The notes beneath the pieces are model-generated. The model was not told where the DNA came from and searched no databases. It worked only from the letters and a program-made list of their open reading frames with translations. A stretch of DNA of 36,304 nucleotides, from NCBI GenBank assembly GCA_030038435.1, contig JASHOY010000310.1, positions 1 through 36,304 on the forward strand. The letters run 5' to 3'. The position numbers and the translations under genes were made by a program. Of this stretch, positions 3,659 through 26,126 are shown one piece after another. Origin of the DNA: Acidobacteriaceae bacterium. GTDB lineage: Bacteria > Acidobacteriota > Terriglobia > Terriglobales > Acidobacteriaceae. Position 1 is the stretch's first letter. Every line of letters starts with the position of its first letter.

Positions 3659-6600
3659 ATGCTAAAGCGATTGACAGCAATCTACGCCGTGATCGGGCTC
3701 GCCCTTCTGCTTTCGATTTCCCCGAAAAACACACTGGGGCAGGCGGTAACTGGCACCCTGCTCGGTACCGTTCAGGATTCGAGCGGCGCGGTGGTTCCCC
3801 ACGCCACCGTAACTCTCACCAATGAGGGAACCAACGTTATCAACACCACACTGACCGGCCCGCAGGGCTTTTACACTTTCCCCAACCTGAATCCTGGCGA
3901 GTATACCGTTTCGGTTTCCGCCTCGGGATTCAAGAAGGTCATCTCGCCGCACAACGTCGTGCAGGTGGAGCAAACCACCAGCGTGAATCTGACCCTCCAG
4001 CCCGGCGCCGTGAGCACTGAAGTGACAGTGACTGGCGCGACCCCGATGGTCGAAACTACCACCTCGGACCTCGGCACCACGATCAGCCAGGCACAGATCA
4101 ACAACCTGCCCGTCAATGGCAGAATTCCGGCCATGCTGATGCAGCTCGCTCCCGGTTCCACGCCCACAGCCTGGGGTGCCGGCAACGGTGAAGATTCATC
4201 CACAGCATCCACCACGGCGCCGGGTGGCGCCGGCGGCGGCGCCTACACCGAGACTAGCGGCTTTCCATTCGAGTCGAATCTCTACCTGGTCGATGGCGTG
4301 ACCGATGTCGAATTGGAAAACGGATACATGGGCCTGCAGATTCCCTTCGATTTCGTTCAGGAAGTAAAACTGGAAACCAGCGATCCCACCGCTGAGTACG
4401 GAACCTTCGGCGCCCAGGTATCCAACATCACCACCAAAACCGGAACCAACACTTTTCACGGCCAGGTTTTCGAATGGAACCGCAACACCGACTTCAATGA
4501 CCCCGACTACTTCAGCAAGCTGAACCCGCCGTTCCACTATAACCAGTTCGGCGGCGAAGTCGACGGCCCGATTATCAAAAACAGACTCTTCTTCGCGGCC
4601 GATCTGCAGTGGCTCAAGCTCGCCGAAGGGTCTTCCGGCATCATAAGCCTGCCCACCGCCGCGGCCCGCAGCGGTAATCTCTCCGCTTTCAACGTGACCA
4701 AAGGCGGATTGACCTACGGTCCCATTGGCAATCCCATGGCCTGTTATTACGGCGCCAAGGCCAACGGCGCTGCAAATCCTCAACCGTGCACCGCCAGCTC
4801 GGCCATCTCCCCTTCCACGGGAACCGCTGACACCGTGCCTGCGTCGGACATTGCGCCCATCGCCGCGGCCTTCTTCAATCCCTCGGTGTGGCCGCTGCCC
4901 AACCTTGCCGGAGCGGTCAATAACGCTACGCAGGTGGAATTGAACGACGCGTCCGAGCCGCAGGAAGACGCCCGCGTTGATTGGGTGCTGACACAGAGTG
5001 ATCGTCTCTTCTTCCGCTTCGGCTACAGCAATCGAACCCTCAACCAGCCCTTGCTGGTCGGCCAGGATACCAGCCCCAACCCCTTCATGAATGATGGCAA
5101 CATCAAAGCCACCAACCAGCTCAGCAACAACGTTGTCGGATGGGATCACACCTTCGGCGCCACCGGCACCATGATGAATCAGTTGCGCCTCGGCTACAGC
5201 CGCTACGCCACCACCGACTTCAGCCCCGCGGACGGCATAGCGGAAAACAATACCCTGGGAGTTCCCAACGGAAACATCTCCGCTTATCCCGATACTAGTG
5301 GTATTGCTCAAGTCAATATCAGCGGCTTCGAGGGCACCGGGGACGCGGGCTGGGTGCCGCAGGGATTAGGCAGGCTTACCAACAACTACCAGTTCAACGA
5401 CGCGTTCACCTTCATCCGTGGCCGCCACAACTGGAAGTTCGGCATTGCCTATACGCCCATCCAGGCGCGCGTCTTCAATTCGCAGAACGATCCCCGCGGG
5501 CAGTTCAGCGCCAACGGCAACATGACCGGCACGCCGCTGGCGCCGGGCTACGCCGCCGCGCTCGGAGTAGCTACGAGCGCAAGCAACCCCGCGCAGGGCA
5601 ACGGCTCGGCCATCGCCGACTGGCTGGTGGGCGCCATGAACGGCGTCGACCGCGACCATTTCTTCGCCCCCCCCAACACGCGGACCAAGGAAATCGGCGA
5701 ATTCGCTCAAGACGACTGGCGCGTGACCCAGAAAGTCACCTTGAACCTCGGCTTCCGCTACGATGTCTACACCCACCCCGTGGATGTGCATAACCTGCAG
5801 AGCAACTTCGTAACCACCGGCCCCGATGCCGGTCTGATTCAACTCGCCTCGTCAAGCAACCGCGGCCCCAATGTGAACACTTATTACGGAAACATCGCGC
5901 CGCGCCTGGGTGTCGCTTACACGCCCGACAACGGCAAGACAGCAATTCGCGCCGCTTTCGGCGTCAGCTACTTCAACGGCAACTTCGGCGCCGACGGCGG
6001 CACGCTGGAGCGCAACTTCCCGCTGCTGGAACAGGAAAACAACTCCTCGCCGGAAGGAAACTGCTCGACGCCCTACGGAGTCACTCCGGCAGGCGGATCA
6101 GCTACCGCCAACCCCAACGCCGCCGAATACTCGACCTGCGGCTCGCTCATCCTGCAGAACGGCCTGCCCGGCAACACGACCTCGGGCACGCCGGTGTATA
6201 CGCCCATTGTTCCCTTCAACGTAGCGCCAGGGGGCACCATCGCATCGCCGCCCGGCTTCGGCGTCTATCAGGTGGCGCAGAACTTCCGCCAGAGCGTGGC
6301 CGACAACTGGAACGTCAGCATTGAGCGGCAGCTCGGCGCCAACATGGCCCTCCACGCCGCTTACGTGGGCACCAAGGGCTCCTACCTCTACAACGATTGG
6401 CAACTCAACCAGTGCAATCCGACGGCGTTTACCCAGGGTCCGTCCTACGACCAGCTTCAGGCTCAATATGGCACGTCGGAGTATCCCGGCACCCCGCAGT
6501 GCTACCCGTTCTACGGCATCGCTCCCGGCATCTCCACCATGGACTTCCGCAATAGCGGAGCCAAGTCGCATTACAACGCCGGCGAGCTCGTCTTCGAGCG

Positions 6601-7270
6601 CCGCGCCGGAGCCAGCCTGACCTTCAATGCCGGCTATACCTGGTCCAAGTCGATGGATAACTACAGCAACCAGCTCGACTCTTACGACATGCACCAGTAC
6701 CTCGATACCGCGGGCTGGCACCACGCCAACTACCCGCAGACTCTCACCTTCAGCTACGTCTACGGCCTGCCCTTCGGCCGCGGAAAGCAGTTTGCCAGCT
6801 CCATCTCTCCAGCCGCCGACGCCATCATTGGCGGGTGGAACATCAGCGGCGTTACCTGGCTCCGTTCCGGCGCGCCGCTGCTCGTAACCGCCAGCTCTCA
6901 ATACCTGCTCAGCCAGAACAGCGGACAGCGCGCCAATTACACCTGCTCGGTCGCCGACAATCCCCGCACCATCTCCGAGTGGATCGACACCAGTTGCTAT
7001 TCGCAGCCCATCGGCTTCGTCTTCGGCAACGACGGCGTCGGCCAGGGAAGCGGCTACGGGCCTCGCTATATGAGCTGGGATATGTCCTTCAGCAAGTCGA
7101 TCCAGTTTGTCGAGCGCGTGCATTTGCAGTTCCAGGCCCAGTTCTTCAACATCTTCAACCGCGTCAACTACCAGACTCCCGACACCGGCGTCACTGACTC
7201 CAGCTTCGGCCAGATTTCCAACGACTACCTGCCCCGGCAGGGTCAGCTCGGAATGACTCTTTCATTCTGA
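3659..7270 (+). CDS. Oar-like TonB-dependent outer-membrane receptor
   Basis: The protein has about 1203 aa and should transport or bind a large substrate, often glycan- or peptide-derived, at the outer membrane using TonB energy. Its substrate cannot be told. The ATG at 3659 is preferred because GGGAGGA lies just upstream and a signal peptide follows directly (LTAIYAVIGLALLLS, then LGQA). Next comes a carboxypeptidase-regulatory-like domain (GTVQDSSGAVVPHATVTLTN to SVNLTLQPGA). A plug with INNLPVNGR, LYLVDGV and AEYGTFGAQVSNITTKTGTN follows, then a long barrel ending in LGMTLSF with a terminal Phe. The TTG start 17 codons upstream has no better ribosome site. The gene is monocistronic, with a strong hairpin after the stop. 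It is divergent from the membrane-anchored regulator. Confidence 0.93.
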   Translation: MLKRLTAIYAVIGLALLLSISPKNTLGQAVTGTLLGTVQDSSGAVVPHATVTLTNEGTNVINTTLTGPQGFYTFPNLNPGEYTVSVSASGFKKVISPHNVVQVEQTTSVNLTLQPGAVSTEVTVTGATPMVETTTSDLGTTISQAQINNLPVNGRIPAMLMQLAPGSTPTAWGAGNGEDSSTASTTAPGGAGGGAYTETSGFPFESNLYLVDGVTDVELENGYMGLQIPFDFVQEVKLETSDPTAEYGTFGAQVSNITTKTGTNTFHGQVFEWNRNTDFNDPDYFSKLNPPFHYNQFGGEVDGPIIKNRLFFAADLQWLKLAEGSSGIISLPTAAARSGNLSAFNVTKGGLTYGPIGNPMACYYGAKANGAANPQPCTASSAISPSTGTADTVPASDIAPIAAAFFNPSVWPLPNLAGAVNNATQVELNDASEPQEDARVDWVLTQSDRLFFRFGYSNRTLNQPLLVGQDTSPNPFMNDGNIKATNQLSNNVVGWDHTFGATGTMMNQLRLGYSRYATTDFSPADGIAENNTLGVPNGNISAYPDTSGIAQVNISGFEGTGDAGWVPQGLGRLTNNYQFNDAFTFIRGRHNWKFGIAYTPIQARVFNSQNDPRGQFSANGNMTGTPLAPGYAAALGVATSASNPAQGNGSAIADWLVGAMNGVDRDHFFAPPNTRTKEIGEFAQDDWRVTQKVTLNLGFRYDVYTHPVDVHNLQSNFVTTGPDAGLIQLASSSNRGPNVNTYYGNIAPRLGVAYTPDNGKTAIRAAFGVSYFNGNFGADGGTLERNFPLLEQENNSSPEGNCSTPYGVTPAGGSATANPNAAEYSTCGSLILQNGLPGNTTSGTPVYTPIVPFNVAPGGTIASPPGFGVYQVAQNFRQSVADNWNVSIERQLGANMALHAAYVGTKGSYLYNDWQLNQCNPTAFTQGPSYDQLQAQYGTSEYPGTPQCYPFYGIAPGISTMDFRNSGAKSHYNAGELVFERRAGASLTFNAGYTWSKSMDNYSNQLDSYDMHQYLDTAGWHHANYPQTLTFSYVYGLPFGRGKQFASSISPAADAIIGGWNISGVTWLRSGAPLLVTASSQYLLSQNSGQRANYTCSVADNPRTISEWIDTSCYSQPIGFVFGNDGVGQGSGYGPRYMSWDMSFSKSIQFVERVHLQFQAQFFNIFNRVNYQTPDTGVTDSSFGQISNDYLPRQGQLGMTLSF

Positions 7271-7299
7271 GCCCGTCCGCAACCCTCGATAAACACCAC

Positions 7300-7326
7300 G
7301 GCCGGATGAGCATCCCTCATCCGGCC
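7300..7326. terminator. Perfect 11-bp stem hairpin between convergent genes
   Basis: GGCCGGATGAG (7300-7310) pairs perfectly with CTCATCCGGCC (7316-7326) around a 5-nt loop. It sits 30 bases after the receptor stop and 38 bases after the minus-strand lipoprotein stop, so it can serve both genes. The T-rich tail after it on the plus strand is short (TTCCTTT). Confidence 0.75.
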
Positions 7327-7363
7327 GGCTTCCTTTGTGCAATTGCTCCAAAATCCTCGTGAC

Positions 7364-11159: not shown

Positions 11160-11447
11160 TTCAATATGTTGGACGAAAATCCACTTACGAAGAAAGCATA
11201 CCCCGAATTGCTGAGCGGTGGGGGAAAGCGCATTGCGGCGTCTGGTGCCAGTTCGAAATTCGCTTTTCCCGTTTGAAATCGCCTCCCGGCCCTGGACTCA
11301 CTTGCAACTCGAGATGACGATTCACAGGCAACCACCGGTGATCTGGCGCGTCTGATACTCTGTCAGGTGCAGCATCCTGCGCTGACCAAGTGGTGCGCGA
11401 ATGCACCGGCGGAACCGTTTCGGCGCCAGGGAAGGACGGGGATTTTC

Positions 11448-12779
11448 GTGAAGTCTGGATTAACGGCAGTTTTGCTGGCAGCATCTCTGAGTAGCGGACC
11501 GGCGTTGTGTGCCGCGGCCCAAACCCAGCAGCAACAGTCCCAAGCCAAGAATCAGCAGCCGGCCGCTCCCAATGCCCCGGTGCCCAATGCGCCGGTGCCG
11601 CAAACGGCGCCTCCATTAGCCACCGTCGACGGCCCGGTTACGCCGGGTCAGGGCACGACCGCCCCGAGCACCTCTTCATCCTCGGGCGAAACCACGGTAC
11701 CTCCGCCGCCCGCTCCGGCAGCCCCCCCGCCACCCGCCTCGCGGCCGCAGGGTCCGCCACTTCCATCGAGCGAGCAGGATTTGGGACGCTTGGTGATTCA
11801 CGTCAACTACGTGCAGGTCCCCACCGTCGTAAAGGATGCGAAAGGCCGGTGGGTGGCCGGACTCACTCCCAATGACTTCGCCGTCTATGAGAACGGCCAG
11901 CACGTCAATCTCGCCTTTTTCAGCACCGACGCCTTTCCGTTGTCGATCGCTTATGTCATCGATCAAAGCCTTCCATCGAACATCATGGATAGGGTCAACG
12001 CCTCACTGGGCGCGATCCAGGGTTCTCTGACACCCTACGATTCGGCCGCCGTGTTCACCTACGCCAACGGCGCCAAGGAGTGGACCGGATTCACCGCCGG
12101 CCAGAGCGCACGGCTGCCCGCCGTTCTGGCTCTGGCCAAGGCCACCGGAAGCGATGCCATGGTGCCCTTAAACAGCGGCCCAATCGCCGGCGGTTGCGCG
12201 GTCATGCAGAACGGCTGGTGCATGGATCCCAACGTGCAGCGCGGGGGGTCCGCAGGCGACTCCTCCTTTATCACCATCCCCAAGGAAATTCATACCCTCA
12301 ATGACGCAATTCTGGCCGCTGCCCGCCAGCTTGCCGTTCTGCCCAAGGACCGGCGCAAGATCATTTACGTCATCTCCGATGGCAAGGAATACGGCAGCAG
12401 GGCCACTTGGAAAGAGGTCGTCCACTACCTCCAGGCCAACAATATCGCGGTTTACGGCACTCTCGTGGGCGAGTCGGCGGAGTGGGGCGTGGGCTTCATT
12501 GACCGCTTCCATCTGCCCTTCACCATGTACGACAACGTTCTCTACAAATACACCGTCGCCACCGGCGGCGATCTGGATACCCAGACCGGCACGGCGGGCA
12601 TTGAAAACAGCTACCAGAAGATCGCTGCCGAGGCACGCAATCAGTACACCCTTGGCTACTACAGCCACACCTCGATCTATGACAGCCGCTTCCGCACCAT
12701 CGATGTGCGCGTCGACCGGCCAAATCTGACCATCATTGCCAAGCGCGGCTACTATCCCTCAGGCCAGTCGTACCAGTGA
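11448..12779 (+). CDS. Second secreted VWFA-related protein with a Pro-rich linker and degenerate metal site
   Basis: I place the start at GTG 11448, where GGAAGGACGGGG lies upstream and a signal peptide follows directly (LTAVLLAASLSSGPALCAAAQ). The ATG at 11367 would add 27 residues before that signal. The product is 443 aa. Residues 25-110 are a low-complexity linker rich in Gln, Ala, Pro and Ser, including NAPVPNAPVP and a PPPPAPAAPPPPA run. The VWFA-like domain follows (VIHVNYVQVPTVVKDAKGRWVAGL, FAVYENGQHV, LSIAYVIDQSLPSN, RRKIIYVISDGKEYGS). It closes with ARNQYTLGYYSH and IIAKRGYYPSG. The MIDAS motif DxSxS is changed to DQSLP, so metal binding may be lost. It forms a divergent pair with the intact-motif protein at 10110. 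Confidence 0.85.
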   Translation: MKSGLTAVLLAASLSSGPALCAAAQTQQQQSQAKNQQPAAPNAPVPNAPVPQTAPPLATVDGPVTPGQGTTAPSTSSSSGETTVPPPPAPAAPPPPASRPQGPPLPSSEQDLGRLVIHVNYVQVPTVVKDAKGRWVAGLTPNDFAVYENGQHVNLAFFSTDAFPLSIAYVIDQSLPSNIMDRVNASLGAIQGSLTPYDSAAVFTYANGAKEWTGFTAGQSARLPAVLALAKATGSDAMVPLNSGPIAGGCAVMQNGWCMDPNVQRGGSAGDSSFITIPKEIHTLNDAILAAARQLAVLPKDRRKIIYVISDGKEYGSRATWKEVVHYLQANNIAVYGTLVGESAEWGVGFIDRFHLPFTMYDNVLYKYTVATGGDLDTQTGTAGIENSYQKIAAEARNQYTLGYYSHTSIYDSRFRTIDVRVDRPNLTIIAKRGYYPSGQSYQ

Positions 12780-12939
12780 GAATGGATGCTTGAGTCCGCG
12801 GGTTGAGGCTCAAAGCGCTTGCTTTCCCGCGGGACCGAATCGCGGCAACCTATTTCGCGGCTGCGTCGCCGCCCGCCTGCATGGCAGCACCAGTGTAAAC
12901 GCACCCGGCAGTCCAACCCTCACGCTTGCAGCTTCAAAC

Positions 12940-12976
12940 AACAAGAGACCTGTGCTTCCGGCACAGGTCTCTTGTT
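12940..12976. terminator. 16-bp perfect hairpin, bidirectional terminator
   Basis: AACAAGAGACCTGTGC (12940-12955) pairs perfectly with GCACAGGTCTCTTGTT (12961-12976) around the stable 5-nt loop TTCCG. It lies between the converging VWFA gene and tatA. A-rich and T-rich stem ends on opposite sides fit a terminator that works in both directions. Confidence 0.8.
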
Positions 12977-13021
12977 CAAAGACGGCAATCAACAGCAGCG
13001 AGCGCGTGGCCCGCGCAACAA

Positions 13022-13258
13022 TTATGCCTTGGTCTCTGTTGTGTTTGCGCTTGGCGGTGTAGAAGGCGCGTTTTGCTGCACGTTCTGGGCTGTATTCGCC
13101 GGCGGAGCCGGGTCACCAATCCCGCGGATCCCTTCCCGGAATCCCTTCAAACCTTCTCCCAGTCCCTTCCCCAGTTCCGGCAGCCGCTTGGCACCGAAAA
13201 GCACAAATGCTACGATGGCGAGCACGATCAGATGCCATGGCTGAAGCATATCGCCCAT
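13022..13258 (-). CDS. tatA: Sec-independent translocase subunit TatA/E
   Basis: The 78-aa product is a TatA-type protein, which forms the pore-like oligomer that exports folded proteins with twin-arginine signals. One membrane helix (residues 8-24, WHLIVLAIVAFVLFG) is followed by the Gly-hinged amphipathic helix starting AKRLPELGKGLGEGLKG and a polar Ala/Pro/Gln tail. GGAGGA lies upstream of the ATG at 13258. No tatB or tatC is in the window. Two proteins with twin-arginine signals are encoded about 9 kb away (22386 and 23391), so a Tat system is needed in this organism. Confidence 0.92.
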   Translation of the reverse strand: MGDMLQPWHLIVLAIVAFVLFGAKRLPELGKGLGEGLKGFREGIRGIGDPAPPANTAQNVQQNAPSTPPSANTTETKA

Positions 13259-19341: not shown

Positions 19342-20100
19342 TTGAATACGGAAAAGAGCATCCGCGTGCTGCTCGTCGATGATGAACCCGCCATTCGCAG
19401 GTCGCTGCGGCTGCCGCTTCAGGAACTGGGCTTCCTGATTGTCGAAGCGTCGCGCGGCGAAGAGGCGCTGCACCTGGCCAGAGGAGACAGCTTTGACGTC
19501 GTCCTGCTGGACATCAACATGCCCGGGATCGGCGGCATGAAAACCCTGGAGAGGCTGCGCGCCTTGGCGCCACGGCTTCCCATCTTAATGCTCACCGTGC
19601 GCGACGACGAAAGAGACAAGGTCGAGGCCTTGGAGAAAGGCGCCGACGACTACATCACCAAACCCTTCAGCTTTCGCGAATGCCTGGCGCGCATTCGCTC
19701 CGCGGTACGGCGCGCGCAAACGCCGGAACGGCCCGAGGATCTGCCCATCACCATCGGCGAAATCGAAGTGCAGCCAGCGCGCCGAAGCGTGAAAAAGTCC
19801 GGCCAGCCTATACGCCTGACGCCAAAGGAATACGACATCCTTTATTACCTGATGGCCCATGCCGGCCGCGCCGTGACTCATGGCAAGCTTCTCACTTCCG
19901 TATGGGGCGCGCAGTACCGGCAGGAAGTAGACTACCTGCGCACTTTCGTGCGCCAATTGCGCAAGAAGATCGAGGATGATCCGTCGAATCCGCAATATCT
20001 GCTGACTGACACTTGCGTAGGATATCGATTCGCCGAGGAAATCCCTCTTGCCGGTAACAGCGAATCCGCCTCCAGTGGCGCTTACTACCCCTTGACATAA
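19342..20100 (+). CDS. OmpR/KdpE-type response regulator (orphan)
   Basis: The 252-aa product has a receiver domain (residues 7-122) with the acidic pair Asp13/Asp14, phospho-acceptor Asp57 (VVLLDINMPG), Thr85 and Lys107 (DDYITKPFS). A winged-helix effector domain (about 140-235) follows, with IRLTPKEYDILYYLM, the recognition region VDYLRTFVRQLRKKIEDD and CVGYRF. Sequence style (LLVDDEP, RLTPKEY, VDYLRVFV-like) is nearest KdpE. Translation starts at TTG 19342 with AAGGAG seven bases before it. No histidine kinase or kdp gene is nearby. It lies between the divergent porin and the redox cluster and could control either. Its stop codon overlaps a TTGACA (20092-20097) that lacks a good -10 partner. 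Confidence 0.9.
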   Translation: MNTEKSIRVLLVDDEPAIRRSLRLPLQELGFLIVEASRGEEALHLARGDSFDVVLLDINMPGIGGMKTLERLRALAPRLPILMLTVRDDERDKVEALEKGADDYITKPFSFRECLARIRSAVRRAQTPERPEDLPITIGEIEVQPARRSVKKSGQPIRLTPKEYDILYYLMAHAGRAVTHGKLLTSVWGAQYRQEVDYLRTFVRQLRKKIEDDPSNPQYLLTDTCVGYRFAEEIPLAGNSESASSGAYYPLT

Positions 20101-20123: not shown

Positions 20124-20137
20124 GTGATCATGATCAC
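20124..20137. promoter_or_regulatory. CRP/FNR-type palindrome at a class II promoter position
   Basis: GTGATCATGATCAC is a perfect 14-bp palindrome. It matches both the CRP form (GTGA-N6-TCAC) and the FNR form (TGAT-N4-ATCA). Weaker outer arms (CAGG..CGA / TCGCCTG) extend the symmetry to about 34 bp. Its centre (20130.5) is 41.5 bases before 20172. A -10-like AATGAT (20160-20165) also predicts a start at about 20172. That is the classic class II activator arrangement, and it leaves the ATG at 20175 almost leaderless. Confidence 0.62.
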
Positions 20138-20174
20138 TGTCGCCTGACGCCCACACAGCAATGATGTTGTGTGC

Positions 20175-21839
20175 ATGGCAAGCGCCCCGGCAACAACGCC
20201 GAAAACCGTGAAGCTGCCGCTTCTGCGCAGGATCTCGCAGATTTTCTTTCTGCTCCTCTTCCTTGGACTGCTAATTCTGACTTCGCTGCGCTCCACGCCA
20301 GGCGTGGCCGGCGACCTTCATGTGCACGCGCCGGTGCGCCTGTTCTTTGAGTGGGACCCGCTGGTCGCCCTGGGCAATGCGCTGGCCACGCACGCTCTTT
20401 ATCGTGGCCTGCTCTGGAGCCTCGTCATCCTGCTGCCGACGCTCTTTCTCGGCCGATTCTTTTGCGGCTGGATTTGCCCTCTCGGCACCCTGCAACACTT
20501 CCTCGGCAGTTGGCGGTCCGAGGCCAAGCGCGGTAAACAGCGTATCGAATCGAATCGCTACAAGCGCTGGCAAACGGTTAAATATGTGGTGCTGATCGCC
20601 GGCCTCGCGGCGGCCTGCTTCGGAACCATGCTGATCGGATGGCTCGATCCTTTCAGCCTGCTGGTGCGCTCGGTTGGGCTCTCTATTCTGCCGGCGTTCA
20701 ATTACGCAGTACGCGCCGTGCTGGCGCCGCTTGAGCACAGCCATTCCGGCGCCATCAGCGGAACCAGCGCGATCCTTCATGATGTGCTGCAATTCACGGT
20801 GCTGGATTTCCGCCAATCGCACTTTGCGCAGGGAGTTTTTCTGGGCGTTGTTTTTATTCTCATTCTGGCCGCCAGTCTCCGTGTAACGCGATTGTGGTGC
20901 CGTGCCATTTGTCCACTGGGTGCCTTATTGGGCGCAGTCTCGCGCTGGTCTGTCCTGGGCCTGCATAAGGACGCGGCCTCATGCGATAAATGCAACCGCT
21001 GCCTGTTGAATTGCCAGGGGGGCGACGATCCCATCGGCGGTGCGAACTGGCGCAAGTCAGAGTGCCTGATGTGCATGAACTGCGTGGGCAGTTGTCCGCA
21101 CTCTAGTTTGCAGTTTCGCTTCTTCCGCAAAGAAAAGGAAGTGGCTTCGCCGGACCTCGGCCGGCGCCGCGCGGTTACCGGACTGGCCGCGGGTGCTGTC
21201 GCGGTTCCGCTTATCCGCGCTAACACCGGGATGGGCAAAGATCGCCATGACCGGCTGCTGCGCCCCCCGGGATCGCTGCAAGAGTCCGATTTTCTTTCCC
21301 GCTGCATCCGCTGCGGCGAGTGCATGAAGGTATGTCCCAACAACTCGCTGCATCCCACCCTCGAAGAGGCCGGATTCGAAGGACTATGGACACCCACACT
21401 GGTGCCCCGCGTCGGGTATTGCGAGCCTAGCTGCGTGCTGTGCTCGGAAGTTTGCCCCACCGGAGCAATCTGGCAAATCACGCCCGCTGAAAAGGGCTGG
21501 GTTGTTGGAGTGGGTCAAGAGAAGAGACAGCCGGTGCGCCTGGGCACTGCATTCTACGATCGCGGCCACTGCCTGCCCTGGGCTATGGCCACCGATTGCA
21601 TTGTGTGCGAGGAGTGGTGCCCGGTCTCGCCCAAGGCGATTTTTCTCGAAGAGGAGAAAGTGGTGGACTCGGCGGGCAATATCAAGATGCTCAAACAGCC
21701 GCACATCGATCCAAGCCGGTGCGTAGGCTGCGGCGCCTGCGAATACGCCTGCCCCATCCAGGACCACCCGGCGGTTTACGTGACCAGCATTGGAGAAAGC
21801 CGTTCGCCTTCGAGCCAGATTCTGCTCAGCCGAAGTTAA
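20175..21839 (+). CDS. NapH-NapG-like fusion polyferredoxin, membrane bound, six 4Fe-4S motifs
   Basis: The 554-aa product combines two proteins that are usually separate. Residues 15-310 are NapH/NosR-like: several membrane helices, two CxxxCP motifs (FCGWICPLG at 97-104, WCRAICPLG at 241-249) and two 4Fe-4S clusters (CDKCNRCLLNC at 270-280, CLMCMNCVGSCP at 297-308). Residues 329-347 (GRRRAVTGLAAGAVAVPL) look like an internal twin-arginine segment, as at the start of NapG/MauM. The NapG-like half follows with four clusters: CIRCGECMKVCP (377-388), CEPSCVLCSEVCP (416-428), CLPWAMATDCIVCEEWCP (466-483) and CVGCGACEYACP (517-528). NapGH-type modules oxidise quinol and pass electrons to the periplasm. 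There is no Shine-Dalgarno; the ATG at 20175 (or GTG 20169) may be nearly leaderless. It is the first gene of a four-gene cluster. Confidence 0.9.
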   Translation: MASAPATTPKTVKLPLLRRISQIFFLLLFLGLLILTSLRSTPGVAGDLHVHAPVRLFFEWDPLVALGNALATHALYRGLLWSLVILLPTLFLGRFFCGWICPLGTLQHFLGSWRSEAKRGKQRIESNRYKRWQTVKYVVLIAGLAAACFGTMLIGWLDPFSLLVRSVGLSILPAFNYAVRAVLAPLEHSHSGAISGTSAILHDVLQFTVLDFRQSHFAQGVFLGVVFILILAASLRVTRLWCRAICPLGALLGAVSRWSVLGLHKDAASCDKCNRCLLNCQGGDDPIGGANWRKSECLMCMNCVGSCPHSSLQFRFFRKEKEVASPDLGRRRAVTGLAAGAVAVPLIRANTGMGKDRHDRLLRPPGSLQESDFLSRCIRCGECMKVCPNNSLHPTLEEAGFEGLWTPTLVPRVGYCEPSCVLCSEVCPTGAIWQITPAEKGWVVGVGQEKRQPVRLGTAFYDRGHCLPWAMATDCIVCEEWCPVSPKAIFLEEEKVVDSAGNIKMLKQPHIDPSRCVGCGACEYACPIQDHPAVYVTSIGESRSPSSQILLSRS

Positions 21840-21853
21840 GGGAGTTGAAGCCG

Positions 21854-22348
21854 ATGATATTAACGCCACGAAGCTGGAAAACGGTCAGCGCCTTGCTGGC
21901 GCTCGCGCTGTTGTTAACCGCTGAAGGATGCAGAAACTCGAAGCAGCCATTCCCGGCCTCGGGAGTTGTTGCGGGTTGGCAGAAAACCAGCGACACACGC
22001 ACATATGCTGCGAAAGATCTTTGGCAATACATCGACGGCGAAGCGGAGGAATACCTCAGCGCCGGCGTCGTTTCTGCATCCACATCCGATTACAAATACC
22101 AGGACGGACTGGAGGCAGCCGTCGACATATTCACCATGGGCAACTCCGCCGATGCAGCGAAGATGTTCGGCTCCAAATCGGAAAAAGGCGGCAGGAGTGT
22201 GCAAATGGGTGACCAGGGCGTTGCATACAACCAAAGCGTGACGTTTCGCAAGGGACCGTACCTCGTTCACATCGTCGGATATGAATCGACCCCCGATGCA
22301 CCTCAGGCTCTTTTGGCGCTGGCCCATGGTGTTGAAGCGAAGCTTTGA
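21854..22348 (+). CDS. DUF6599-family exported protein, probable lipoprotein
   Basis: The 164-aa product starts at ATG 21854 with GGGAG upstream, 14 bases after the polyferredoxin stop. The in-frame ORF upstream to 21596 is not used. A hydrophobic signal (VSALLALALLLTAEGC) ends at Cys26. The lipobox (AEGC) is imperfect, so lipidation is likely but not certain. The body matches what I recall of DUF6599: a Trp early in the domain, RTYAAKDLWQYIDGEAEEYLSAG, and a beta-rich core (AAVDIFTMGNSADAAKMFG, NQSVTFRKGPYLVHIVGYE). Function is unknown. Lying between an electron-transfer protein and two exported DUF362 proteins, it may be an envelope partner of that chain. Confidence 0.8.
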   Translation: MILTPRSWKTVSALLALALLLTAEGCRNSKQPFPASGVVAGWQKTSDTRTYAAKDLWQYIDGEAEEYLSAGVVSASTSDYKYQDGLEAAVDIFTMGNSADAAKMFGSKSEKGGRSVQMGDQGVAYNQSVTFRKGPYLVHIVGYESTPDAPQALLALAHGVEAKL

Positions 22349-22385
22349 GTTTATGCCGTCGCCTTCAGGCAGTCAGGAGGAAATG

Positions 22386-23378
22386 ATGAAGAGTCGCCGC
22401 GAGTTTTTGAAAGATGCCGCCGGAGCCGCGCTTTGGGGTGCCCAAGGCAGCTTTGAATGGGCCCAAAAACCAGGTCAGCGGATTTCCGGCGCCAGGTCCC
22501 GCGTTGTGGTGGCCCGGGATGCCGGGCTGCGCATCCAGGGTTCACAACCTGACGAACAGAACGTGCTGGCGCTGCTGGACAAGGCGATGACCGCTTATTC
22601 CGGTCGAACAGCGCCGGCCGAAGCATGGCGATACCTGGTGCCGCGCGATACGGTGATCGGGCTGAAAGTCAATGGCCTTGGCGGGCGAGGCATTTCTACA
22701 CACGCGGTGTTGGTCCACGCCATCTGTGAGCGGCTGCAGCAGGCCGGCGTACCGGCGGGAAATATCGTCGTTTGGGACCGCAATGCGCGCGACCTCGAGG
22801 CCTGTGGAATGAACCTCGGCACCGATCGAAGCCGCGTCCGATGCTACGGATCGGACGTAGCGGGCTTTGAAGATACCGCCGTACATTGTGGCTCAGCTCA
22901 ACTTCGGCTGTCGAGGGTTCTCACGCGCGATTGCGACATGGTGATCAGTGTGCCCATCCTCAAAGATCACACCATGTCCGGCATAACGTTTTCGATGAAG
23001 AATATGTATGGGGTTATCGATCGTCCCTATCTGCTGCACGGCGATAACTGCAATCCCGGTGTGGCCGACGTGAACGCCTTGTCTGCTGTGCGCGATAAAG
23101 TGCGCTTCACTATTGGCGACGCGCTCACATCGGTTTACGAGGGCGGCCCGGTGTATTCCCCCGAGCATTTATGGCGCCCGAATGCGCTCATCGTGGGCGA
23201 AGACCGCGTAGCCGTGGACCAGTCCGCATGGCAGATGCTCGACCGCAAGCGTGTTGAAGAAGGGCTGTCGACGCTGAAAGACGCGGGCCGCGAGCCTCGT
23301 TATATAGCCACGGCGGCCGATGCGGCACACCGGCTCGGCACCAACGATCCGCGGCGAATCCAATTGCTGGAAGTGTGA
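22386..23378 (+). CDS. DUF362 protein with twin-arginine signal (first copy)
   Basis: The 330-aa product starts at ATG 22386, five bases after AGGAGG; the ATG at 22383 is too close. The N-terminus MKSRREFLKDAAGAALWG is a Tat signal with the full SRRxFLK motif, so the folded protein should be exported. DUF362 features are VIGLKVNGLGGRGIS, VLVHAICERLQQAGVPAGNIVVWDRN, DMVISVPILKDHTMSGITFSMKN followed by MYGVI, a nearby DNCNPG segment and DRVAVDQSAWQML. There is no CxxC cluster, unlike DUF362 proteins fused to ferredoxin, so electrons would have to come from a separate donor such as the polyferredoxin encoded upstream. Its biochemical role is unknown. Confidence 0.85.
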   Translation: MKSRREFLKDAAGAALWGAQGSFEWAQKPGQRISGARSRVVVARDAGLRIQGSQPDEQNVLALLDKAMTAYSGRTAPAEAWRYLVPRDTVIGLKVNGLGGRGISTHAVLVHAICERLQQAGVPAGNIVVWDRNARDLEACGMNLGTDRSRVRCYGSDVAGFEDTAVHCGSAQLRLSRVLTRDCDMVISVPILKDHTMSGITFSMKNMYGVIDRPYLLHGDNCNPGVADVNALSAVRDKVRFTIGDALTSVYEGGPVYSPEHLWRPNALIVGEDRVAVDQSAWQMLDRKRVEEGLSTLKDAGREPRYIATAADAAHRLGTNDPRRIQLLEV

Positions 23379-23390
23379 CGAGAGAAGAAA

Positions 23391-24512
23391 ATGGCCGAGC
23401 AAAACCATGGCGAGCCGGGCGAAAAGGTGGAAGCGGACTTGACCACTGACAGGTCTGAATCGCGGCCGGGAGCGATGCTGGCATCAGGCATGTCGCGTCG
23501 TGAAGCGATGCTGCAGCTGTTGCGGCTGGGAGGTGCTGCCGCCGGAGTGGCAGGCACGGCATTCTGGCTCAGTGAGCGCAGCAGCCGTCCCATCCCCGCA
23601 GCGCCCGAGAAAGCTCGGCGCGACCATCGCGTGGCGGCGAACGTGAGCCTGCCCAAGATCACGGTGGCTTATTGCCCCACTGAAGCCGGCCAACCTGTCG
23701 CCCGCCAAGGCGAGCCGCGATTGCTCGTGCAGAAGGCGCTGGAAAACCTGGGCGGAATCCGGCGGTTTATCAACACCGGCGACACTGTGGTTCTAAAACC
23801 CAACATTGCCTGGGACCGCACCCCGGAGCAAGCAGCGAATTCCAACCCTGAGTTAGTGGCCGAGGTAGTTCGCCAGTGCCGGCAGGCCGGGGCAAAACGC
23901 GTGATTGTTACCGACGTGAGTTGCAATGAACCGCGGCGTTGCTTCCTGCGCTCCGGTATCGAAGCCGCCGCGCGAGCTGAGGGAGCAGAAGTCGTGCTCC
24001 CGGATTCCCAGCTGTTTCGTGAAGTGGACATTGGAGGTGTAGCACTCAAGACATGGCCGGTTTTCGGGCCGTTTCTCGATGCGGATAAGGTAATCAACTT
24101 GCCCATTGCCAAGCAGCATGGGCTGGTTGGGGTCACCTTGGGGATGAAGAACTGGTATGGAATTCTCGGCGGTGAGCGCAACCGCCTGCACCAGCAGATT
24201 CATCAGAGCCTGGTCGACCTGGCCAGTTTTATGTTGCCGACGCTCACTCTGCTGGATTGTTATCGCGTGCTGCTTCGCAACGGCCCCACCGGCGGGAACC
24301 TCGAAGATGTTGCCATCAAAAAAACTATCGTCGCAGGAACCGATCCCGTGGCAATTGACGCTTATGTAGCCAAGGCGTATTGGGATCTCGATCCGCAGCA
24401 CCTGCCTTATCTGGAAATGGCCGATGCGCGTGGACTAGGGTCGGTAAACTTCGACAGGCTGGCGGTGAAGGTGAGCCGCATTGCCAGCGACCCTGCCGGT
24501 AGCGCCGGGTAA
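23391..24512 (+). CDS. DUF362 protein with twin-arginine signal (second copy)
   Basis: The 373-aa product lies 12 bases after its paralogue. A polar leader precedes a twin-arginine segment, MSRREAMLQLLRLGGAAAG (Arg36-Arg37); a start at ATG 23490 would give a conventional Tat signal length. DUF362 motifs are GDTVVLKPNIAWDRTPEQA, LVAEVVRQCRQAGAKRVIVTD, KVINLPIAKQHGLVGVTLGMKN followed by WYGIL, and GTDPVAIDAYVAKAYW. Compared with the first copy the core P-I-x-K-x-H-x-x-x-G-x-T-x-x-M-K-N-x-Y-G is kept, while the rest has diverged, so the two probably form a heteromer or act in sequence. It is the last gene of the cluster and converges on the gene at 24588. Confidence 0.85.
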   Translation: MAEQNHGEPGEKVEADLTTDRSESRPGAMLASGMSRREAMLQLLRLGGAAAGVAGTAFWLSERSSRPIPAAPEKARRDHRVAANVSLPKITVAYCPTEAGQPVARQGEPRLLVQKALENLGGIRRFINTGDTVVLKPNIAWDRTPEQAANSNPELVAEVVRQCRQAGAKRVIVTDVSCNEPRRCFLRSGIEAAARAEGAEVVLPDSQLFREVDIGGVALKTWPVFGPFLDADKVINLPIAKQHGLVGVTLGMKNWYGILGGERNRLHQQIHQSLVDLASFMLPTLTLLDCYRVLLRNGPTGGNLEDVAIKKTIVAGTDPVAIDAYVAKAYWDLDPQHLPYLEMADARGLGSVNFDRLAVKVSRIASDPAGSAG

Positions 24513-24587: not shown

Positions 24588-26126
24588 CTACTCCCGCGGG
24601 CCCACAATCGTCAGGTGCATACCTGTCACGGCCTTATAAGTCAGATCGACAAATGCCCCATTCTGTTTTGCCGTGAAGCTCTTTGCGTCTGCTTTTACAT
24701 AAACTGTCAGCTTTGGCAGTTTCCAGACATTTGACTTTACGTCGCCTGCCCCGATCCCCGGAGCGCTGATACGAAAGCTAATGTCACCATCCGCCGAAAT
24801 GACGATTCCCTTCTTGTCTGCCGTAGCATCGATTGGTGGACAACGAGTAAGTTGAATCCAGCCGATCCTGCCTGGCGCCTGCCACTGCACCGTCACCGGA
24901 TGAAACTGGCTTCTCGCGTCGACGCCTCGCATATGCCTGGTGAATTCTCCGCCATAGATCACGCTCTTACCAATCCACGCTGTTGCAATGCGCCCTTCCG
25001 CGATCGGCTGGCGCACCCGGTGTTCACCCTGAAAGCTCTCGAAACTCTTCATCGCATCCTGAGGTATGTGTGTATCCAGAACCACGATGAGGGGAACGAA
25101 CCAGAGATCCGCAACGTGATCTACGGGAGGTTTGAAGGACGGCAGCGGCGCCTGGTCCGCGTTGAGCACTGTCCGCAACCACAACCCCGTAACGCTCACA
25201 TAGCTGCGCATGTCCATTCCATAGGAGCGGTCATAAGGGCCGGAGATATTGCGAAGATTGGCGTTATATAACTCCGCGGTCGTTCGCCACAATGCGGCCT
25301 CCATTTCCCGGCCCCTGGCTCGCATCTGCGGCGTGGATCCGTAGTCGCGCCAGAGCGCCAGGGCGTACAGATCCACTCCCCCGTACGTCGGCGAATTGAA
25401 CTCGTCGAAGGTGTCGTGCTCCTTGAAAAGTCCGTAGACGGTATCCTGCCATTTGATTGCCGGCGCCATCCACTGCGGTCGGCCGCCATGGGCCGCTGCA
25501 TAATCCCACAGAAATGCAAGCATCAAAGCGGGGTTGGAATAAGTCGGCTGCAAGCGGCCCTGCTTCACTTCGCCGGCGACGGCATCGTCGATGGAAGTCA
25601 TCATTTCTTTGGCCAGATCGGCCGGAATGCGGTCCCGGTATTCTTCCAGGATTATCGCGAACGTAGTGCCGATGAATTCCCGCCAATTTGGATCGTAGCC
25701 TCGCCACATCACCGCCTTGGCCGGTGGCTCGGGCTCATTGGGAGAGCGCTTGAATGTCCCATTCCACGGCTTGCCCGGTTCATGGTATTGCTGTTTCAAG
25801 ACAACGCGAATAATTTCAGAAGCGCGCTCGCGATCACCGGGCCCATCGCGCAGCAAGAGTCCCAGCGCGTACCACGTTGACTCCCGCACCATGTAATAGG
25901 AAGGCGCCCGCAAGTTGCCCTCCACAGTTCCCGCCGGCGCCCGACACAGCTCGTACTGCGAATCCCAGGAGTTATCGGCCCACCGCATCGAAGTCGCAAA
26001 AATCTCCTGACTGTTCTGGCTCAGCGACTGCACATTTGGGTGTCGCGATAATGCGCGCGCTGGAACCGCGAAAACAAGACTGAAGAGGACGATAAAACCC
26101 GCTGCTGCCCGTAGCCATAGCTTCAT
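24588..26126 (-). CDS. Secreted protein, probable alpha/alpha-toroid carbohydrate-active enzyme
   Basis: The 512-aa product has a signal peptide (AAGFIVLFSLVFAVPARA). Residues 50-330 are rich in helices with conserved aromatic and acidic patches (STWYALGLLLRDG, YDPNWREFIGTTFAIILEEY, TYSNPALMLAFLWDY, FDEFNSPTYGGVDLYALALWRDYG, GPYDRSYGMDMRSY). The last 150 residues look like beta-strands (RIGWIQLTRCPP, GDISFRISAPG, PKLTVYVKAD). A helical toroid followed by a beta sandwich is the plan of several polysaccharide lyases and heparinase-like enzymes. I cannot name the family, so substrate and catalysis are unknown. AGGGGA precedes the ATG. It lies 163 bases behind the Oar-like receptor on the same strand, which suggests a role in the same nutrient pathway. 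Confidence 0.65.
   Translation of the reverse strand: MKLWLRAAAGFIVLFSLVFAVPARALSRHPNVQSLSQNSQEIFATSMRWADNSWDSQYELCRAPAGTVEGNLRAPSYYMVRESTWYALGLLLRDGPGDRERASEIIRVVLKQQYHEPGKPWNGTFKRSPNEPEPPAKAVMWRGYDPNWREFIGTTFAIILEEYRDRIPADLAKEMMTSIDDAVAGEVKQGRLQPTYSNPALMLAFLWDYAAAHGGRPQWMAPAIKWQDTVYGLFKEHDTFDEFNSPTYGGVDLYALALWRDYGSTPQMRARGREMEAALWRTTAELYNANLRNISGPYDRSYGMDMRSYVSVTGLWLRTVLNADQAPLPSFKPPVDHVADLWFVPLIVVLDTHIPQDAMKSFESFQGEHRVRQPIAEGRIATAWIGKSVIYGGEFTRHMRGVDARSQFHPVTVQWQAPGRIGWIQLTRCPPIDATADKKGIVISADGDISFRISAPGIGAGDVKSNVWKLPKLTVYVKADAKSFTAKQNGAFVDLTYKAVTGMHLTIVGPRE

Follow-up and report, generated by a model that had tools for sequence, protein, structure and literature searches.

The NapGH proteins of E. 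coli and W. succinogenes act as a quinol dehydrogenase that feeds a periplasmic reductase, as set out in passages of two papers (PMC5449189, PMC5928378). The two parts also occur as a single polypeptide, the dual Sec/Tat (general secretory and twin-arginine translocation) polyferredoxin. This NapH-NapG fusion has a fifth transmembrane segment whose insertion is Tat-dependent by reporter fusions, according to the topology passages of Tooke et al. (eLife 2017, PMC5449189). A further group of enzymes, LarA and its DUF2088 relatives, are racemases of lactate, malate, and other 2-hydroxy acids that use the nickel-pincer nucleotide (NPN). Here we analyse a cluster of four genes in which a NapH-NapG fusion stands together with a DUF6599 protein and two exported DUF362 proteins. 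The cluster lies on a contig of 36,304 nucleotides from an Acidobacteriaceae bacterium (assembly GCA_030038435.1, contig JASHOY010000310.1, C512 in our numbering), which was analysed at full length and is called the window below. The source assembly comprises 6.4 Mb in 512 contigs.

The best overall explanation of this cluster is an extracytoplasmic, LarA-fold, and probably NPN-dependent oxidoreductase wired to quinone, to which we assign a probability of about one in two. The cluster very probably encodes an exported, quinone-linked enzyme with a LarA fold. For the window's lineage, the odds that NPN is the cofactor are even, and oxidation of a substrate to feed quinone is offered as a tentative direction. 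That DUF362 carries NPN is put forward as a hypothesis; its circumstantial support is good, and there are real counter-cases.

The NapH-NapG fusion and its DUF362 partners

The four genes run in one direction on the forward strand from 20169 to 24512, according to the open reading frame (ORF) listing of the window. Gene calls are longest ORFs, with approximate starts, and some of the ORFs counted below are fragments. The fusion occupies 20169-21839 (+) and has 556 residues from a GTG at 20169, with an ATG at 20175 as the alternative start. The original prediction placed the start of the cluster at 20124, but the GTG there meets an in-frame TGA at 20145, so that the gene starts at 20169 or 20175. 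The DUF6599 protein (21854-22348, +, 164 residues; Pfam PF20244, E 1.9e-18) is followed by DUF362-A, which runs from 22383 or 22386 to 23378 (+; PF04015, E 1e-21) and carries the Tat motif MKSRREFLK. DUF362-B ends the cluster at 23391-24512 (+; PF04015, E 1.9e-50), with the Tat motif MSRREAM from residue 34. The DUF6599 and DUF362 names are borne out by Pfam, and the twin-arginine signals predicted for the last two proteins are present in both as SRRE-type motifs. Gaps of 14, 37, and 12 bases had been given; the first and last stand, and the middle one is 34 or 37 bases depending on the start codon.

The fusion begins with a NapH-like membrane part that contains two CxxxCP motifs (C99/C103 and C244/C248) and two 4Fe-4S cysteine sets (residues 272-282 and 299-309). 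A twin-arginine and a weakly hydrophobic segment lead to a NapG/MauM-like part with four more cysteine sets (379-389, 418-429, 468-484, and 518-528). All of these motifs, predicted from the outset, could be located, and they are kept in 40-42 of 42 aligned fusions (41 of 72 fusion ORFs and the window's). The twin-arginine at the junction had been overlooked; R333 is present in 42/42 and R332 in 39/42 sequences. RR332-333 and the segment 335-353 (21162-21227, +) are together a candidate for the Tat-dependent fifth transmembrane segment, by which the NapG half would reach the outside. The four clearest N-terminal segments have Kyte-Doolittle means of 1.96-2.43; the mean of segment 335-353 is 1.25, and positive charges (R, K, R) follow it.

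In its inventory the fusion resembles the NapGH quinol dehydrogenase, where NapH has two CxxxCP motifs and two clusters and NapG has four clusters. However, the fusion is one polypeptide, and the cluster contains no nitrate reductase genes. Its NCBIfam scores (NapH, 99.4 bits with a cut-off of 234; NapG, 97 bits with a cut-off of 269) fall below both cut-offs, and the protein is therefore related to both families without being a proper member of either. The passages of PMC5449189 on the polyferredoxin of deltaproteobacterium MLMS-1 (Q1NSB0) give a closer likeness: a NapH-NapG fusion with four clusters predicted outside, a twin-arginine before a weakly hydrophobic fifth segment, and positive charges after it. 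Three inner clusters are stated there, whereas the window's fusion has two cysteine sets in its NapH part. Since the marks given by Tooke et al. in these passages are shared, the architecture is already known, and the fusion is not new. A term search of the main text of that paper finds neither "DUF362" nor "operon".

The association of the fusion with DUF362 is widespread. The fusion (E 1e-40 or better) is found in 112 of 396 Acidobacteriota genomes, and 80 loci from 77 of these genomes make up the Acidobacteriota set. The multi-phylum set consists of the best 80 of at least 450 fusion relatives, to which all its counts refer; the two sets may share genomes. By record title, it includes Acidobacteria, Myxococcota, Nitrospirae, Planctomycetota, deltaproteobacterial groups, Gammaproteobacteria, SAR324, Armatimonadetes, Verrucomicrobia, and others, and its neighbouring genes were clustered with overlapping frames removed. 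Among the matches listed, the closest relatives of the window's fusion are 77-81% identical and come from metagenome-assembled genomes (MAGs) of Acidobacteriaceae and Terracidiphilus. A DUF362 gene is present at 76/80 loci of the Acidobacteriota set and 69/80 of the multi-phylum set, and at 70/80 and 59/80, respectively, it shares the strand of the fusion and is no more than 400 bp away from it. In seven of the 11 multi-phylum loci without DUF362, the fusion lies at most 700 bases from the start of the locus.

A DUF6599 profile built for this analysis finds the gene on the same strand in 37/80 Acidobacteriota loci, and DUF6599 is present in 40/80 multi-phylum loci. The fusion, DUF6599, and two DUF362 ORFs share one strand in 10/80 Acidobacteriota loci, and all parts of the cluster are present in 8/80 multi-phylum loci. 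The commonest order is DUF6599-DUF362-fusion; the order in the window, fusion-DUF6599-DUF362-DUF362, is common to its close relatives. The genes thus travel together in several phyla. The DUF362 proteins also share the export signal, with a twin-arginine in 61 of 63 fusion-linked sequences (one per multi-phylum locus, above 300 bits only) and in 89 of the 92 in an alignment that includes extra copies, which argues against a cytoplasmic location.

The predicted LarA-like fold and pocket of DUF362

DUF362 proteins were aligned using 69 of 79 eligible ORFs and the window's. In the tree, DUF362-B belongs to the main operonic clade, and DUF362-A falls in a second clade, that of the extra copies found where an operon has two or more DUF362 genes. 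An AlphaFold2 model of DUF362-B built from 70 sequences reached a mean predicted local distance difference test (pLDDT) score of 93.8. When this model was compared with the PDB by Foldseek, 19 chains were matched at E <0.001 (6e-6 to 3e-4). By title, 18 of these are lactate racemase, malate racemase, or LarA-like, and the other, 4nar, is an unnamed Thermotoga maritima protein. VIA-align found 12 entries with Z 14.6-17.3 over 202-213 residues at a root-mean-square deviation of 2.6-3.4 (11 LarA or malate racemases by title, and 4nar), and the next entry had Z 5.1. As modelled, DUF362-B has the fold of the LarA N-terminal domain. A PDB sequence search with both DUF362 proteins gave no relative (only E 0.2-0.9).

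Kinship between DUF362 and LarA is already known from the parts of PMC11770544 that bear on it: DUF362 and DUF2088 share the Pfam clan CL0471, and ten DUF362 sequences serve as the outgroup of a LarA tree. The passages of that paper name no cofactor for DUF362. What is new here lies on the DUF362 side, namely the link of the exported protein to the LarA fold and its linkage to the NPN biosynthesis genes larB, larC, and larE (larBCE), both of which the original prediction had passed over. A literature search found no paper on an exported LarA-fold partner tied to NPN biosynthesis. Among titles and the starts of abstracts, with most subscription journals outside the scope, no paper linked NPN to DUF362, Tat export, or quinones. 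The NCBIfam family Npun_F2552 scores 71.6 of 500 bits against DUF362-B, far under the cut-off, and the name "Npun_F2552" is not mentioned in the literature within that same scope.

The LarA site comprises a lysine bound to NPN, a histidine on nickel, two catalytic histidines, and an aspartate at the ribose, as given in the passages of PMC12611868 on the active site. LarA numbering was mapped through an Acidobacteriota LarA and then by profile-profile comparison with DUF362. His243 of DUF362-B (codon 24117-24119, +) aligns with the second catalytic histidine of LarA (His173 in I. pallida, His174 in L. plantarum), and Lys253 (24147-24149, +) aligns with the lysine that is covalently bound to NPN (Lys183 in I. 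pallida; K183/184). His267 (24189-24191, +) is a candidate nickel ligand. These residues are strongly conserved. K253 and H267 are present in 92/92 and 63/63 DUF362 sequences; position 243 is histidine in 63/63 fusion-linked proteins and in 89/92 with extra copies, the other three having threonine. The 63 fusion-linked sequences are invariant at K241, H243, K253, N254, H267, D289, G298, and P299.

H243 and K253 align without gaps with the LarA histidine and the NPN-tethering lysine in both profile alignments. The first alignment places N138 on the LarA aspartate and N179 on the first catalytic histidine, and position 179 is histidine in 11/92 sequences. Because H243 and K253 are held in both alignments and N138 and N179 are not, H243 and K253 are the firm pair. 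A single catalytic histidine would fit one-way hydride transfer rather than racemisation. DUF362-B thus resembles the LarA/DUF2088 enzymes in its predicted N-terminal domain fold, the tether lysine, one aligned catalytic histidine, and, in some lineages, larBCE neighbours. It differs from them in its Tat motif, in having two conserved histidines instead of three, in the lack of a C-terminal domain, and in its partnership with an electron-transfer protein. LarA homologues with a single catalytic histidine are described for S. plurextorum and B. wexlerae in passages of PMC12611868. In them, as in DUF362-B, one of the two catalytic histidines is kept and ordinary racemisation is not expected. However, they keep the first histidine and have lost the second, whereas DUF362-B keeps the second; they are also full LarA proteins, 480-505 residues long, and the same passages show NPN for one of the two.

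NPN biosynthesis genes beside the operon and across genomes

In seven loci, all from Acidobacteriaceae and Gammaproteobacteria, larB, larC, and larE lie near the operon (both sets counted, with possible overlap). In L068, from the sister genome G388, larE (3664-4602), larC (4625-5944), and larB (5944-6690) precede a fusion that starts at 6772. The same larE-larC-larB order stands directly before the fusion in L070 (genome G345), and the lar hits of both genomes exceed the NCBIfam cut-offs. The five multi-phylum loci are L176, L177, and L178, from Terracidiphilus and Acidobacteriaceae, L224, from a Chromatiales MAG, and L237, from a gammaproteobacterial MAG. L224 has the order larC-larE-larB-DUF6599-DUF362-fusion-aldo/keto reductase, mostly with overlapping ends. 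In L237, larC adjoins the fusion and larE-larB lie some 4 kb further. Cut-offs are passed by all three lar genes in L068 and L224 and by larE and larB in L237, and the LarC match of the L237 genome (G433) agrees with the locus in coordinates and frame. The larE gene occurs alone in L203, where it passes the cut-off, and, on the opposite strand, in L226. Random placement would yield about 0.25 larC-holding loci among the 80, compared with the five observed; this expectation assumes 4.6 Mb genomes and independence, and three of the five loci belong to Acidobacteriaceae or Terracidiphilus.

NPN genes and the fusion also co-occur at the genome level. In Acidobacteriota, LarC is found in 98/112 fusion genomes and in 184/284 others (Fisher p 4e-6, uncorrected for kinship). 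In Myxococcota, the numbers are 36/37 and 135/198 (p 8e-5, likewise uncorrected). Two of the Myxococcota matches, in G546 and G616, belong to a more distant polyferredoxin beside which no DUF362 was seen; without both the count is 34/35 (p 1e-4). LarC is also present in 44 of 50 fusion genomes not labelled Acidobacteria, two of which carry no phylum label; six further candidates were left out of this search. A search for LarA covered 80 of the 98 Acidobacteriota genomes with fusion and LarC, and 24 of these 80 have no Lar_N match. NPN in those 24 genomes therefore needs another user.

The window's genome itself has larB, larC, and larE. Its larE is at the end of contig C79 and its larC-larB at the end of C29; given these positions, the three genes may be together in larE-larC-larB order, broken by the assembly.

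Alternatives, proposed mechanism, and wider meaning

Several results weigh against an NPN-dependent DUF362. The profile match to LarA is weak (probability 59%, E 9e-5), and a larger profile scored lower (14%, E 0.0019). The two alignments disagree on the partners of the LarA aspartate and the first catalytic histidine, and H267 lies two columns off the nickel-binding histidine of LarA in the gap-free profile alignment. Only two histidine columns are conserved at 85% or more among the 92 sequences, and LarA needs three. The structural match covers the LarA N-terminal domain alone, ending at LarA residues 259-286 of about 393-480; the C-terminal domain is missing from the predicted DUF362-B, whose mature form has 313 residues. 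A Pfam scan of both DUF362 proteins detects only the DUF362 domain itself and no one-electron centre, and hydride-to-cluster transfer therefore needs an unproven step. The larBCE linkage is seen in a minority of loci (5/80 multi-phylum and 2/80 Acidobacteriota), and the window's genome possesses LarA and has its larBCE on other contigs. LarC is missing from six of the 50 fusion genomes not labelled Acidobacteria.

Other counter-cases agree with a LarA-like pocket that holds a different cofactor or ligand, the larBCE linkage then reflecting a separate NPN enzyme or chance. Fourteen of the 112 Acidobacteriota fusion genomes lack LarC. LarE was sought in 25 and LarB in 30 genomes, including all 14, and 11 of the 112, from five families and 92-100% complete, have neither LarC nor any LarB or LarE over the cut-off. 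K241, H243, K253, and H267 are nevertheless kept in all six examined of those 11. Among the Myxococcota fusion genomes only G636 lacks LarC, and its module is complete, with fusion, DUF362, DUF6599, and aldo/keto reductase (L261); the control genome of Bacteroides ihuae has DUF362 without LarC. Assembly gaps apart, the fusion genomes without larBCE and G636 exclude a strict need for home-made NPN across the family. In L258 (4570-10436; G546:C95), conversely, larE-larC are linked to the more distant polyferredoxin with no DUF362 seen. This one-direction set consists of larE-larC, two small membrane proteins, the polyferredoxin, and a Tat aldo/keto reductase, and the contig ends 206 bases past larE. 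It may be either a second type of NPN-linked polyferredoxin or a cut operon, and its layout suggests that such systems might make use of NPN in different ways. We nevertheless regard a different ligand as rather unlikely. It sits poorly with the seven loci that hold all three lar genes, two of them gammaproteobacterial by title, with the excess of larC over random placement, and with the overlap of most neighbouring genes in L224.

The exported, probably NPN-dependent oxidoreductase that we favour could work as follows. The NapH part of the fusion would be inserted by Sec and the NapG part then by Tat, giving an iron-sulphur wire that joins the quinone pool to the membrane's outer face. DUF362-B would be its main enzyme partner, exported by Tat in the folded state. 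Tat export implies folding in the cytoplasm, often with a cofactor, and NPN would be made in the cytoplasm, where the Tat substrate folds. Chemistry of the LarA type shuttles a hydride between NPN and a 2-hydroxy acid, within one substrate. In DUF362-B the exchange of the hydride would be with the iron-sulphur wire, and a hydroxy acid, sugar acid, or sugar would thereby be oxidised, or the matching carbonyl reduced. DUF362-A and the putative DUF6599 lipoprotein would be accessory parts. The lactate/pyruvate potential is near -190 mV and that of menaquinone near -74 mV; by these values, oxidation into menaquinone is downhill and this direction is weakly preferred.

The original prediction ran the other way. 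In it, the DUF362 pair is a terminal reductase, of respiration or repair, that receives electrons from quinol by way of the fusion, and NPN plays no part. A redox link between a quinone-interacting fusion and exported DUF362 proteins is a natural reading of genes that travel together and share Tat motifs, and this part of the interpretation holds; novelty of the fusion is not supported. NapGH, which feeds a periplasmic reductase in the direction opposite to that preferred here in the passages cited above (PMC5449189, PMC5928378), provides a precedent, and the 11 fusion genomes without larB, larC, and larE over the cut-off also agree with a reductase that does without NPN. However, a terminal reductase is unlikely: the Pfam scan offers no cofactor domain in either protein beyond DUF362, the structural relatives of the DUF362-B model are LarA-type racemases, and the larBCE linkage goes unexplained. 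Substrate oxidation is at least as good a match for LarA-type chemistry as a flow from quinol to DUF362.

A second exported oxidoreductase is found at many of these loci. At 21 of the 80 multi-phylum loci, the gene of a Tat-exported aldo/keto reductase is no more than 6.5 kb away from the fusion, 18 times on the same strand; examples are at 6692-7939 in L224, 4944-5927 in L254, and 4865-6106 in L179. Profile matches were obtained in 19/80 Acidobacteriota loci, some of them distant or on the other strand, and a few members of the family have two 4Fe-4S cysteine sets. The presence of this enzyme near the fusion further supports alcohol/carbonyl chemistry. That DUF362 is a non-enzymatic, exported maturation or docking factor for the clusters of the fusion would suit their near-constant pairing but is very improbable, given the invariance of K241, H243, K253, H267, and D289 in 63/63 sequences, the two or more diverged DUF362 copies of some loci, and this second oxidoreductase.

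The DUF6599 protein is probably a lipoprotein, judging from its leader. Its lipobox, LLTAEGC, is plausible but non-canonical, and a similar leader-ending cysteine is seen in several close relatives and is absent from most of the 55 aligned rows (54 of 70 DUF6599 ORFs and the window's). A model with pLDDT 92.9 gave no Foldseek match at E 0.001 or better. VIA-align related it to the PknH extracellular domain (Z 12.4) and TiME (Z 9.9), which says little about function.

Several other genes lie in or around these operons. A molybdopterin enzyme and a cytochrome c were said to be lacking, which is true of the four genes; the sister locus L070 has a small cytochrome c gene (Cytochrome_CBB3, 6977-7348) in its cluster, between the fusion and DUF6599 genes. 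In the sister genome of L068, a GH127 protein (beta-L-arabinofuranosidase type, 11209-13155) with a twin-arginine start follows DUF362-B, and a protein at 2396-4345 in L069 resembles it, judged by the start of the sequence only. In the window, an OmpR-type response regulator (19342-20100, +) ends 68 bases before the fusion. It was rejected as a member of the operon because it does not stand just upstream in any of the four sister operons for which every gene was listed (L068-L071). A 512-residue protein with a signal-like start (24588-26126, -) is convergent with the operon and has no match in Pfam or NCBIfam. Promoter and terminator scans were uninformative (2 and 7 sites, compared with 1.7 and 6.1 in shuffled sequences).

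About 15% of the genomes analysed in an mBio 2024 paper have larB, larC, and larE without larA, most cyanobacteria are without larA, and the protein that uses the cofactor there still awaits identification, with a fold that likely differs from that of LarA, according to the relevant passages (PMC11796402). DUF362, a domain of bacteria and archaea with no assigned function, is a concrete candidate with a LarA fold for this user. Control genomes fit this idea only in part. LarC and DUF362 occur with no Lar_N match in Synechococcus elongatus and Haloferax volcanii. Beside their LarC, Corynebacterium glutamicum and Methanocaldococcus jannaschii have neither DUF362 nor a Lar_N match, and DUF362 cannot therefore be the only other user of NPN. 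It is a tentative proposal that the Tat-exported DUF362 proteins are the first NPN enzymes to work outside the cytoplasm, and also the first to be wired to a respiratory quinone pool, and that DUF362 more widely is an NPN user of the kind expected in larA-less larBCE genomes. If true, DUF362 would gain a cofactor and the Sec/Tat polyferredoxins an enzyme partner, and a nickel organometallic cofactor would join respiratory chemistry.

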